NCBI GenBank assembly: GCA_029907705.1 | Contig: JARYLJ010000015.1 | Coordinates: forward strand, 1 to 42,138 | Direction of reading: 5' to 3' | Length of the DNA: 42,138 bases | From: Methanomicrobiales archaeon | GTDB lineage: Archaea; Halobacteriota; Methanomicrobia; Methanomicrobiales; JACTUA01 | Shown: piece by piece, positions 28,373-33,868 of the stretch | How positions within the stretch are numbered: position 1 is the stretch's first letter | Layout of the letters: every line of letters starts with the position of its first letter | Program-made: the position numbers and the translations under genes | The notes under the pieces: model-generated | The model's input: only the letters and a program-made list of their open reading frames with translations | What the model was told of the DNA's origin: nothing | Databases searched by the model: none

Positions 28373-28889
28373 CTGGCACCACTCCGCATATCCTGAATCC
28401 GATTTCCCTCGTCTATGAGTATGATCTCTGAACATTTTCTTCATTCGGGCATATCTTCCTTGGGACGCAGGCAAAGTGCTGCTGGGTGAATCGCTCCATA
28501 TGCGGTTTGCCGAACAAGAGCCGACCCAGGATGATGCAAAATAAATTTCCCGCTATAAGAATGTTCACATATCCACTATTTCCCATGTTCACAAACATTT
28601 CAGGATAATACGGTGATGATGAATGGTGAATGGTTTTTAAAATCATCTCCCGCTCGTTTTAGAACCATCATCGATCTGGAGATCGTATAACGGGCGGCAG
28701 GACTGTGGATAACATCACCAAAGGCAAATTTCAGGGATAATCCTCGAATTCACTGGCATCTTTCAGACCCCAATCTCCCGTTACGCCGGGGATATGCACC
28801 TATCCGAACATATAATACCAGAGAAGAGCATCCTGACATGTCGACGGAGGGGATTATGCCACTGTTCGAACGATGGGGTGAGATATAGG
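28373..28889. other. 517-base divergent promoter region
   Basis: No gene is supported. ACATATAATACC (28809-28820) is a good plus-strand TATA box for the following gene. A 14-base perfect palindrome-like hairpin CGATCTGGAGATCG (28672-28685) lies mid-region and could be a regulator site. A 16-codon plus frame at 28837, closing four bases before the next ATG, may be a chance leader peptide. Confidence 0.35.
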
Positions 28890-29393
28890 ATGCGGGGGAT
28901 GACGGACAGCATGCGCTGGCAGATGTCCTCGAGGATCAACTCCTTCCTTTCGGTCCTGTTCGGGCTCGGGCTTCACGATATGGGACCGGATGCGGGGGAC
29001 CGCCTGGTCGAGGATATCTGGTACTTCTGCGGGAAGGAGATGGCTGATCTGGCGAAGGGGTGCGGGGCGCCTCCGAAGACCGCTGGCGATCTCTCGGTGG
29101 CCCTGACAGAGGTGCTAAAGACGATCTTCGGCGGCGAGTACCGCTCGGAGATCATCGAGATCTCAGACGAGAGGGCCGTGGTGCTGATGCGGACCTGCCC
29201 CTGCCAGCTCAGGGCGATGGAGCTCGGGGAGGATCCGTCCATCGTCTTTCACCCCTGCCTCTCGGTCGCTGTCTCCCTCGTAGAAGGGTTGAAGAAGGAC
29301 TACTCCGCCAGGTTCATCAGGGGAATCTGCATGGGGGACAGAAACTGCGAGATACTCATCGCACCGAAGGTGACCCTCGAAGGGAGCGACTGA
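28890..29393 (+). CDS. V4R / methanogen output domain-like small protein
   Basis: A 167-residue soluble protein. The C-terminal stretch with RTCPCQLRAM, HPCLSVAVSLV and RGICMGDRNCEI resembles the V4R family, which usually ends in a C-x-x-GDxxC motif and binds small ligands; similar domains are used as output domains in methanogen sensors. Here it is free-standing. The ATG at 28890 is preceded by GGTGAGATATAGG, a usable ribosome binding site, and a TATA box lies 70 bases upstream. It could sense a ligand or redox state through its Cys residues. The assignment is from motif memory only. Confidence 0.55.
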   Translation: MRGMTDSMRWQMSSRINSFLSVLFGLGLHDMGPDAGDRLVEDIWYFCGKEMADLAKGCGAPPKTAGDLSVALTEVLKTIFGGEYRSEIIEISDERAVVLMRTCPCQLRAMELGEDPSIVFHPCLSVAVSLVEGLKKDYSARFIRGICMGDRNCEILIAPKVTLEGSD

Positions 29394-29477: not shown

Positions 29478-30569
29478 ATGCTGCAATCCCGCGCTGGGCA
29501 TTCATTGCGTGGCATCGCGGAGAGGTGGCAGAAGAAGGTATCCAAGCTACACGAGTACGCGGTGGTGAAGGACGGAAATCTCTTCAGAGCGGGCCTCGAG
29601 AACTCCTTTCTCTTTCAAAGCGAGTATCAGGCCGCGTTGGAGATGGGGGACCGGCTCGCGGGGGAATACAGCGGCGTACCCCTGGATTCTGTATTTTCAG
29701 GCAGATGCGAGGAGACGCCGTGCGGTGAATCGTACTGCATCGAGACATATATGGAGGCGACTCCTCCGGCTATCGACAGCGGCACATTATCCGAGTCTCT
29801 GCTGTCCAGGCTGACGCTCATCCACGGGATCGGTCCTGCGATGGAGCGGAGACTGAAGGGCCGGGGCTACCGCACAATACAGGATCTCCTCCATCACCCT
29901 CTGTACAGAAGGGCTGCTGCCGCAATCCTGCATAAGATCGAGGCACGGGAGGCAGGAAGCCTGGAGGAACTGACACGGGAGCGCCTGCCACGTTCGCACC
30001 CCCTCGTTTTAAAGACCTCTCTGGTTCTCGAGCCCGAGAAACTCGTCTTTCTGGATATCGAGACCCTGGGGCTCTTTACCCGCCCCGTCATCCTCATTGG
30101 TATCGGACGGATGGAGCGCAACGGAATCCGGGTGGCCCAGTATCTCATCCGGGATCCCTCGGAGGAGCCAGCCGCACTCTGGTCGTTTCGCCGCAGGCTA
30201 GAGGGCGCATGTGATGCGTTCGTCACCTTCAACGGGCGTTCCTTCGATATCCCGTATATCATGGAGCGTCTCGCCTATTACGGGATTCAGGCAGGCTTCA
30301 TGTGCCCCCATTACGATCTCCTCCAATTCTCCAGGAGGAGGTGGAAGGGTCTGCTCAACGATACGCGCCTTCGAACCCTCGAACGAAAGATCCTCGGTTT
30401 CGAGCGGAGAGACGATATCCCCAGCCAGCTGGTGCCGGAGTTCTACGAGATGTACCTGAGAACGGGCAACTGCGGGCCTCTGATTCCGATCGTGATGCAC
30501 AACAGGGAGGATATCCGCTCGCTCTTCAGGCTCTATTCATGCCTGGCGGGGGAGGATGCATGGCCCTGA
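29478..30569 (+). CDS. mrfB: YprB/MrfB-like DEDD exonuclease
   Basis: A 363-residue protein. A helix-hairpin-helix element (LTLIHGIGPAMERRLKGRGY, about 112-131) comes before an RNase H-like DEDD exonuclease domain with D193 and E195 (FLDIETLG), D257 (FNGRSFDIPYI) and D345 (HNREDIRSL). This matches YprB/MrfB, which in Bacillus subtilis acts with helicase MrfA in repair of mitomycin adducts independently of UvrABC. The helicase gene follows with a 10-base overlap, so the pair is kept. The gene symbol is by analogy; an archaeal role in nucleotide-excision-type repair is inference. Confidence 0.82.
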   Translation: MLQSRAGHSLRGIAERWQKKVSKLHEYAVVKDGNLFRAGLENSFLFQSEYQAALEMGDRLAGEYSGVPLDSVFSGRCEETPCGESYCIETYMEATPPAIDSGTLSESLLSRLTLIHGIGPAMERRLKGRGYRTIQDLLHHPLYRRAAAAILHKIEAREAGSLEELTRERLPRSHPLVLKTSLVLEPEKLVFLDIETLGLFTRPVILIGIGRMERNGIRVAQYLIRDPSEEPAALWSFRRRLEGACDAFVTFNGRSFDIPYIMERLAYYGIQAGFMCPHYDLLQFSRRRWKGLLNDTRLRTLERKILGFERRDDIPSQLVPEFYEMYLRTGNCGPLIPIVMHNREDIRSLFRLYSCLAGEDAWP

Positions 30570-32833
30570 AGGATTTTATAGAGACGCTCACTTCGAATCC
30601 CGGTTTCAGCGATTGCATCGCCCATGTAGAGAGTTATCCGTCGAAAGCAGGGGTGAAGGGCACGCTGGCGAGGCCCCTCCATCCCCTGCTGCAGGAGTAT
30701 CTCGATATGAAAGGGATAGAGCTCTACCGGCATCAGTGCGAGGCGATCGATGCACTCAGGGAGGGCAGACACACCATCATCACCACGGGCACCGCATCGG
30801 GAAAGACCCTCGCCTTCACCCTCCCTGTCTTCGAGAGGATACTGGATGTTCCGTCCACCCGTGCACTGTTTGTGTACCCGGCAAAGGCGCTGGCGAACGA
30901 CCAGCTCAAAGCGATACAGGAGATCGAGCGGTACACCGGTTGCATGTCGAAGTCCGCGGTATACGACGGCGATACGGCTCAATCGAAGCGCGCCGGGATA
31001 AGAAACGAGTCGTCCATCGTGCTCACGAACCCATATGAGCTGCACCACATCCTCCCCTGGCATCACCGCTGGGGGAATTTCTTCAGAGATCTTGCATTCG
31101 TCGTCATCGACGAGGCGCACCGGTACAGGGGTGTATTCGGATCGAACACGGCCCTGCTCATCAGGAGACTGCGCCGGATATGTGCGCATTACGGTGCCGC
31201 CCCCACATTCGTCCTTTCCAGTGCAACACTGGCCAATCCTCTGGAATTCGCCAGAAAGCTGACTAGCCTTGATTTTTTTTCTGTCGACCAGGATGTCTCA
31301 CCGAGGAGCGAGCGCCATTTCGTCCTCTTCAACCCGTACAGGAACGGTTCAGGAAGCAGAAATACCTATACAGCGGCAAAGGATCTCCTCGTCTCATCCA
31401 TCGGCAGCGGGCTGCAGACACTCTGTTTCACCTCCTCCCGCCGTATGTCGGAACTCGTCGCCCGATGGGCGCTGGAAGATGCCGCACGCCAGAAGGGAAC
31501 ATGCGGCGGGTCCATCTCGTGTTACCGGGCGGGTTATCTGCCCGAGGAGAGGAGATCGCTGGAGGAGATGCTGAAGCGGGGGATGCTGAGAGGTCTGGTC
31601 TCCACCAATGCACTGGAGCTCGGGATCGACATCGGTACACTGGATGCGGTGATCATGTGCGGATTTCCAGGAACACTCATCTCGACCTGGCAGCAGGCAG
31701 GGAGGGCAGGAAGACGGGGGAAGGGATCCATCTCCATCCTCGTTGCATACGAGAACCCCCTCGACCAGTACTTCATGAATCATCCCTCCTCGTTCTTCGG
31801 CAGACCCGCGGAGCATGCAATCCTGGACGAAGGAAACCCATACATCCTGAGCGGACACATCCTCTGCGCTGCCTCCGAACTGCCGCTCGACATTCCAAGG
31901 GATCGTCATTATCTGGGCAACGGGCTGGAGGAATCGGTCCTCGCACTCGCCGGTGAAGGATTGCTCCGCCAGAGCAGTCATGGCTGGGTGTACGCCGGCA
32001 GGGGGCGGGCGACCGAGGCGGTCTCTCTGGAGAGTATCGCATCGGAGCACTTCGGGGTGCTCTGCGAAGGGAGGATCATCGAAACGATGGACCGGATGCA
32101 GGCATTCAGGGAGGCCCACCCGGGAGCCGTGCTCCTGCACAGAGGGGATACCTACCTGGTCCAGTCGCTCGATCTGGAAGAGAGGGTCATCCGTGTCAGA
32201 AGGGCAGAGGTGGATTACCACACCGAGGTGGTGAAGAGATCGGATCTCAGAGTCAGGGAGGAGCGAGAGAGGGTCATGCATGGAGAATTCGCGATCTCCT
32301 ACGGCGATGTGGAGGTGGAAGAGAGTTATGTCGCCTACAGGATTATCCAGCGGGGCAGCGTGGTGAAAACTGAACCGCTGGACCTTCCTGCGGTTCGATT
32401 CGAGACACGGGCATGCTGGCTGGAGATCCCGGAGAGACTGGTCACCCTCCTGATCGAGCAGGCCCTCGAGCTGGCAGGTGGTCTGCATGGGATGGAGCAC
32501 GCGATGATCGGCATCATGCCATATCATGTCCTGTGCGACCGCTGGGACATCGGAGGTCTATCGGCGGTCTCTTTCCCGTCGACCAGGAGAGCGAGCGTAT
32601 TTGTGTACGACGGGTGCGAAGGAGGGATCGGACTCTCGGAGAAGGCATTCCACCTGATGGATGAGATCCTCACCAGTGCCCTCGAGCTGGTGAGGGACTG
32701 CCGATGCGAAGGAGGATGCCCCTCCTGCATCCATTCGCCCAAGTGCGGTAACGACAACAGACCGCTCGACAGGAGGGCGACGATCCTCCTGCTGGAATCG
32801 CTCTGCGGAATGCTTTCGTGTCACGGAGGCTGA
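30560..32833 (+). CDS. mrfA: MrfA-like superfamily 2 DEAH helicase with C-terminal DUF1998
   Basis: A 757-residue helicase. The Walker A TGTASGKT (76-83), DEAH box (184-187), SSATLANP (motif III) and the C-terminal helicase motif QQAGRAGRRGKG are complete. The last 250 residues form the DUF1998-type region with a four-Cys cluster C716-C720-C723-C729 (CEGGCPSCIHSPKC), as in MrfA of Bacillus subtilis (about 750 residues). The ATG at 30560 follows GGAGG. It should unwind or translocate on DNA and hand it to the DEDD exonuclease encoded just upstream. A DNA methyltransferase starts at the very next base, so the three genes form one unit. Confidence 0.9.
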   Translation: MALKDFIETLTSNPGFSDCIAHVESYPSKAGVKGTLARPLHPLLQEYLDMKGIELYRHQCEAIDALREGRHTIITTGTASGKTLAFTLPVFERILDVPSTRALFVYPAKALANDQLKAIQEIERYTGCMSKSAVYDGDTAQSKRAGIRNESSIVLTNPYELHHILPWHHRWGNFFRDLAFVVIDEAHRYRGVFGSNTALLIRRLRRICAHYGAAPTFVLSSATLANPLEFARKLTSLDFFSVDQDVSPRSERHFVLFNPYRNGSGSRNTYTAAKDLLVSSIGSGLQTLCFTSSRRMSELVARWALEDAARQKGTCGGSISCYRAGYLPEERRSLEEMLKRGMLRGLVSTNALELGIDIGTLDAVIMCGFPGTLISTWQQAGRAGRRGKGSISILVAYENPLDQYFMNHPSSFFGRPAEHAILDEGNPYILSGHILCAASELPLDIPRDRHYLGNGLEESVLALAGEGLLRQSSHGWVYAGRGRATEAVSLESIASEHFGVLCEGRIIETMDRMQAFREAHPGAVLLHRGDTYLVQSLDLEERVIRVRRAEVDYHTEVVKRSDLRVREERERVMHGEFAISYGDVEVEESYVAYRIIQRGSVVKTEPLDLPAVRFETRACWLEIPERLVTLLIEQALELAGGLHGMEHAMIGIMPYHVLCDRWDIGGLSAVSFPSTRRASVFVYDGCEGGIGLSEKAFHLMDEILTSALELVRDCRCEGGCPSCIHSPKCGNDNRPLDRRATILLLESLCGMLSCHGG

Positions 32834-33868
32834 ATGGTATCTCACGAACCCGTATTCATCCACGGCGCCGCCCTGTACAATATCGACTGCGTAGAGGGGG
32901 CGAGGCGCCATCTGCAAGATGGCTCCGTCGATCTGATTTTTACCGATCCGCCATATGGCATCCAGAGCGACAGACTGCACCTCCATTACAACAGGGACGA
33001 GGGATATGTCCTGGATGGTTACGTGGAGGTGAGAAAGGAGGAGTATGCGGAGTTCAGCGAACGGTGGATAAAGGAGGCAGAGAGGGTGCTGCGCCCCGGT
33101 GGTTCGCTGTATGTCGTATCCGGATATACCCATCTCTACGAGATACTGCATGCCCTGAGAAAGACCTCGCTCCGCGAGGTGAACCACCTCGTATGGAGGT
33201 ACAGCTTCGGCGTCTTCACGAAGAGGAAGTACATCTCCTCTCATTATCATATCCTCTTCTACGAGAAGCCGGGTGGTGAAAGGACTTTCAATGCGGAGTC
33301 GAGGTTCGGTTTCAGCGAACGTTCCGAGGACGGCCGTTCCCCGAACAGCACGGATCGCGAGGACGTCTGGATGATAAACCGCGAGTACAAGCCCGGCAGG
33401 CAGAAGAACAGGAACGAACTCCCCATCGAGCTCGTCACAAAGGCACTGCAGTACAGCAGCAGGGAGGGCGATCTCATCTGTGATTTCTTCCTCGGCGGGT
33501 TCACCACCGCGAAGGCGGCGATCGGGCTCGGGAGAAGATTCGTCGGTTTCGAGCTGTCGCCCGAGATTTTCAGGGCAAGGATCGATGAGATTCGATCTCT
33601 CGAGGAGGGATGGCTTCTCCCGAAAGTGCGGAAGCCCCACCTCTCGAGTCATGTGAACCGGCACAAACGCTGGACGGAGGGGGAGAGGGTGCGTCTGAAG
33701 GAACTCTATTCATCACTGAAAGAACAGGGGTGCTCGAAGAAGGAGATTCTGGAGATCACCGGAAGGGAGCTGGGAAGGGGGCGCTGGGGATTGGAGAGGG
33801 CGATTCGGAGATTTATCAAAAAAAAGAATCCGAACATCGAAGTGGATACTGACAGTCCCGATAAATGA
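32834..33868 (+). CDS. DNA methyltransferase (N4-cytosine/N6-adenine type) with C-terminal helical domain
   Basis: A 344-residue protein. The catalytic DPPY (38-41, in FTDPPYGIQ) comes before the AdoMet-binding region (ICDFFLGGFTTAKAAIGLGRRFVGFEL, about 215-240), the beta-class order. The AdoMet motif reads FFLGGFTT instead of the common DPFxGSGTT. The last 70 residues (RWTEGERVRLKELYSSL onwards) look like a basic SANT/Myb-like helix-turn-helix. No restriction endonuclease gene is adjacent, so it is an orphan or works with the helicase/nuclease pair. It begins at the first base after the helicase stop. Target sequence cannot be inferred. Confidence 0.88.
   Translation: MVSHEPVFIHGAALYNIDCVEGARRHLQDGSVDLIFTDPPYGIQSDRLHLHYNRDEGYVLDGYVEVRKEEYAEFSERWIKEAERVLRPGGSLYVVSGYTHLYEILHALRKTSLREVNHLVWRYSFGVFTKRKYISSHYHILFYEKPGGERTFNAESRFGFSERSEDGRSPNSTDREDVWMINREYKPGRQKNRNELPIELVTKALQYSSREGDLICDFFLGGFTTAKAAIGLGRRFVGFELSPEIFRARIDEIRSLEEGWLLPKVRKPHLSSHVNRHKRWTEGERVRLKELYSSLKEQGCSKKEILEITGRELGRGRWGLERAIRRFIKKKNPNIEVDTDSPDK

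Follow-up and report, generated by a model that had tools for sequence, protein, structure and literature searches.

A 42,138-nucleotide contig of a Methanomicrobiales archaeon (GenBank assembly GCA_029907705.1, contig JARYLJ010000015.1; hereafter the window) carries a run of three genes, for an exonuclease resembling MrfB, a helicase resembling MrfA (YprA) and a DNA methyltransferase (MTase), which an initial annotation had proposed to be one methylation-guided repair or anti-virus unit recalling both MrfAB and DISARM. Our analyses favor, with a probability of slightly more than 80%, a different account: a common mrfBA repair operon behind which a solitary DNA MTase became attached, once and in a small lineage, and which is neither DISARM nor a conserved methylation-guided machine. 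By analogy with the Bacillus subtilis pair, the MrfA 3'-5' translocase/helicase would open the duplex where a bulky or crosslinked lesion lies, and the MrfB DEDDh exonuclease would degrade the exposed strand, a step like that of nucleotide excision repair. The beta-class MTase would have been inserted downstream of mrfBA in the common ancestor of the window genus and its sister genus, and the trio now probably forms one co-transcribed operon, with the MTase start touching or overlapping the helicase end. The MTase would mark its own short site genome-wide without any need of MrfAB, as its unlinked orthologues in Methanoculleus, Methanospirillum and other Methanomicrobiales presumably do.

The open reading frames were exactly as initially annotated, and so were the 10 bases (30560-30569) shared by the exonuclease end and the helicase start and the placement of the MTase ATG (32834) immediately after the helicase stop, a TGA at 32831-32833. 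That ATG is preceded within a few bases by GGAGG. The helicase frame is open from 30302, but its relatives align with it from the start codon ATG at 30560 onwards.

The likeness to MrfAB, the mitomycin repair pair of B. subtilis (YprAB), had been rightly recognized. The exonuclease matches the RNase_H_2 family of Pfam at 2.8e-34, its only strong relative by sequence in the PDB is MrfB (8un9, 2e-18), and its AlphaFold model (pLDDT 83) places the MrfB core of 8un9 at rank 1 in Foldseek (E 1.7e-8). The exonuclease domain spans about residues 186-356, where D193, E195, D257, H341 and D345, invariant among 14 archaeal orthologues, correspond to the DEDDh residues D107, E109, D172, H258 and D262 of B. 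subtilis MrfB (PMC11194089). The latter also has a C-terminal TPR domain (PMC11194089), but none was found C-terminal of the archaeal exonuclease domain, the protein stopping about eight residues past it, and the enzyme is therefore MrfB-like, by sequence and by predicted fold, and not a full-length match to MrfB. In their adjacent, co-directional genes, MrfA domain order and five MrfB catalytic residues, the archaeal and B. subtilis pairs are alike; they differ in that the archaeal order is mrfB-mrfA and that the 363-residue exonuclease, without a TPR domain, has an N-terminal region with a helix-hairpin-helix-like motif (about 112-140). As a separate observation, 21 sampled genomes, many of them of the Methanoculleus genus g9, keep an MrfB-like exonuclease with no MrfA above threshold (e.g., L252, L253 and L256 in the Methanoculleus-type genomes G034, G004 and G062, and L254 and L255 in G079 and G119), and in G119 decayed helicase pieces alone remain downstream of it; in such genomes the exonuclease may work solo or with a different helicase.

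The helicase comprises DEAD, Helicase_C, WHD_HRQ1 winged-helix and C-terminal zinc-binding MZB (= DUF1998) domains (Pfam), and matches B. subtilis YprA/MrfA (PDB 6znp) at 468 bits (4e-139) over residues 36-726. Against TIGR03817 it scores 783 bits, under that model's curated cut-off of 874, and against the models of DruE and DrmA 144 and 74 bits, respectively. A survey of the YprA family found that helicases with MrfB neighbors constitute its repair branch (PMC12458937), and the helicase gene of the window adjoins one for an MrfB-type exonuclease; judged by its match scores and this neighbor, the helicase belongs to the MrfA/YprA repair branch. The fusion of helicase and DUF1998 that had initially been singled out is present, but its wording misled, since members of the MrfA/YprA family normally carry the two fused and DISARM alone splits them (PMC12458937).

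The third protein matches the N6_N4_Mtase family of Pfam at 5e-36 and the PADLOC model MTase_II at 442 bits. Its motif IV (DPPYGI) stands ahead of motif I (DFFLGGFTTA), and it shares this order and the DPPY with CcrM, M.BceJIV and M.RsrI, N6-adenine enzymes that are the nearest PDB entries in sequence and fold. It departs from them in its form of motif I, DFFLGGF(T/S)TA, in an identity of about 21-26% in fold alignments, and in its C-terminal tail of three predicted, DNA-binding-like helices, in a model of mean pLDDT 66 that is reliable only in the core and in these helices. The protein is a beta-class, "type II" MTase and, judged by motif and nearest enzymes, probably one of the N6-adenine kind. 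Persistent orphan type II MTases were reported from Methanomicrobiales in a survey of archaeal restriction-modification (RM) systems, in groups that include HG3 (GATC, N6-methyladenine, m6A) and HG16 (AGCT, N4-methylcytosine, m4C) (PMC10609329). The distribution of the window MTase matches neither HG3 nor HG16 cleanly. Like the surveyed orphans it is type II-like and solitary, kept by most sampled members of a genus and lacking a restriction partner; unlike them, it is joined to mrfBA.

How general the joining is was apparent from 150 genomes of the order, in which mrfA was called by a score threshold and MTase orthologues at no less than 230 bits. The mrfBA genes are a conserved archaeal pair across Methanomicrobiales: both occur in 91 genomes and are adjacent in 89 (90 adjacent-pair rows, G112 with its split exonuclease appearing twice), the two remaining cases being a contig break (G050) and genes on different contigs (G052). 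An MTase orthologue is present in 49 genomes, yet it lies directly downstream of mrfA in just three of the 94 that bear mrfA (the window genome, G026 and G044), all of one family. In 18 genomes MTase and mrfA are unlinked, either on separate contigs or with 52 kb or more between them, and in 28 there is an MTase but nothing that passes the mrfA threshold; the presence of one gene shows no positive association with that of the other and, if anything, a negative one (odds ratio 0.29, a statistic that ignores phylogeny). Most Methanoculleus genomes retain the MTase though no mrfA exceeds the threshold, and at the Methanoculleus loci examined (f4/g9) it is solitary among conserved neighbors. A comparison by eye of match coordinates across 295 phylum genomes brought no other linked case to light; Methanohalophilus-type genomes there have both genes, far apart. 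These linkage counts, at the level of both order and phylum, rule out a trio conserved throughout Methanomicrobia, which the initial annotation had put forward for checking. Its "one unit" holds locally, the trio being found in two genomes of a sister genus as well, but not beyond one family. The arrangement that it had named as fatal to its proposal, an MTase adjacent in this genome alone with mrfBA conserved by itself, is close to what the order displays, those two genomes being the departure from it.

Within the family (11 genomes) the trio occurs in the window genus, g1, and in two of three genomes of its sister genus, g5, the contig of the third ending within mrfA; the helicase-MTase junctions of G026 and G044 overlap as ATGA. 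Genera g2, g3, g4 and g6 have mrfBA without an MTase behind it. In g2, g4 and g6 the slot behind mrfA is filled by a P-loop NTPase-like gene (GPPGCGKTT-type motif; Table 1). The helicase tree makes the window genome sister to g5 (support 93/92), and a single MTase insertion in the ancestor of g1 and g5 is the simplest account of the linkage. Several points weigh against it, or against independence of the MTase from its neighbors. In the MTase tree of 90 rows, the window copy is nearer to unlinked Methanoregula copies than to the linked ones of g5 (99/81), and a similar Methanoregula grouping is seen with 30 rows (97/85), so that a single insertion is not proven, though a single clade of the three linked MTases is not rejected (p-AU 0.165). 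In addition, the trio has been kept, with tight junctions, across roughly 55-60% protein identity and two genera. A recent insertion by chance would not be expected to last so long, and the three genes may thus have some joint role particular to this lineage. Finally, the known linked genomes number only three, two of them fragmented.

The alternative that survives best, unlikely as we hold it to be, is that the MTase is the relic of a type II RM system, having lost its nuclease partner and lying behind mrfA by chance or being kept against incoming restriction enzymes. An alignment-based scan located relatives of the MTase at 70 genomic loci, in archaea and many bacterial phyla, and on 58 viral contigs, with neither MrfA nor MrfB in the flanks of any of these 128 loci; one weak helicase match near a relative (L173) is unrelated. 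Phage and plasmid records held no close homologue at E 1e-30; relatives do occur on IMG/VR viral contigs. At 13 loci of several phyla the MTase relative adjoins, often within a few bases, a conserved gene of about 215 (to 240) residues, whose family has no Pfam or PADLOC match and may be a new type II restriction endonuclease partnering the MTase. The existence of such a neighbor, and the lack of any homologue of it in the window genome, speak for a relic. Yet no restriction nuclease gene or remnant was found beside the MTase in the window, though an unrelated partner may lie farther off in the genome, and the MTase is solitary in most members of the order that have it, making solitary function the norm. 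The relic explanation overlaps the attachment of a solitary MTase to mrfBA that we prefer, differing only in the reason for MTase retention. An observation apart concerns 33 of the viral contigs (within L187-L240, e.g., L187:4445-5011), in which a gene of one family, without a Pfam or PADLOC match, stands upstream of the MTase relative, often overlapping by about 10 bases; a phage-borne RM or modification accessory is possible.

Next in order, and improbable, is methylation-guided repair, in which the MTase would mark parental strands or sites and MrfAB would read the mark for strand choice or site access, the trio being one machine here. Methyl-directed repair is known elsewhere, in Dam/MutHLS, and the tight, partly overlapping gene order common to two genera would suit such a machine, but more than 95% of sampled mrfBA holders are without a linked MTase, the MTase persists where mrfA is lost, and a Pfam scan revealed no methyl-reading domain in the exonuclease or helicase. 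Ranked after it, as quite improbable, is the narrower notion that an adenine MTase was recruited into the operon in one Methanomicrobiales family, where its marks would direct or regulate what MrfAB does; only through such a recruitment, confined to one lineage, could methylation and repair be functionally coupled, and tight linkage in two genera is all the positive support there is for it.

DISARM resembles the trio in combining a DNA MTase with a DUF1998 domain and an SF2 (superfamily 2) helicase of the YprA type, but its DrmA helicase and DrmB DUF1998 protein are separate, and it has a PLD nuclease, DrmC, and MTases of its own. The single DUF1998 (MZB) match of the genome lies inside the mrfA-like helicase, so there is no separate DrmB; no DISARM MTase model is among the best 25 PADLOC matches; and DrmC, DrmMI and DrmMII were not among the scanned window genes, the rest of the genome not having been searched for them. 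Nor do the surroundings form the defence island that had been envisaged, the remainder of the window being housekeeping in nature (ProRS, Elp3, PriS, MetRS, RNase HII, geranylgeranyl reductase, BacA and tRNA-Phe). Defence against viruses, be it by DISARM or by some other member of the wider group of YprA-based systems, would have the MTase mark self while the helicase and nuclease attack unmarked DNA. It is very improbable even with an MTase and a nuclease at the locus, given the one DUF1998 gene of the genome, a helicase of the wrong branch, an MTase of another type and the housekeeping context. The DUF1998 and MTase system of PMC4752239 was also considered and set aside as an unrelated multi-protein translocase system.

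Upstream of mrfB is a gene for a 199-residue protein with no Pfam or NCBIfam family match, which is also found directly 5' of mrfB in G038 and G044 (sister genus g5 included) and in G107.

Table 1. Coordinates of the genes and sites discussed (window positions unless a locus is named).
Feature	Position	Strand	Length	Basis or remark
mrfB-like DEDDh 3'-5' exonuclease gene	29478..30569	+	363 aa	Pfam PF13482, PDB 8un9, predicted fold
mrfA/yprA-like SF2 helicase gene	30560..32833	+	757 aa	PF00270, PF00271, PF22982, PF09369; PDB 6znp
MZB/DUF1998 domain inside helicase	32492..32731	+		sole MZB match in genome
Beta-class amino-DNA MTase gene	32834..33868	+	344 aa	PF01555, PADLOC MTase_II PDLC03296
GGAGG ribosome-binding-site-like site and helicase stop abutting MTase ATG	32824..32836	+		sequence
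Gene upstream of mrfB, no known family	28794..29393	+	199 aa	neighbor of the trio
P-loop NTPase-like genes behind mrfA in sister genera	L102:8937-9482, L104:4652-5281, L105:4099-4668
Genes of about 215 aa beside MTase relatives	L157:3254-3916, L164:5351-5998; also L115, L128, L142, L159, L160, L161, L166, L169, L176, L178, L180

Read as a solitary MTase attached to a common repair operon, an mrfBA locus with a neighboring MTase need not be classed as a novel system for defence or guided by methylation. The analysis further presents mrfBA as an archaeal pair, conserved across Methanomicrobiales, with its own form of MrfB, one without the TPR domain and with an N-terminal helix-hairpin-helix region.
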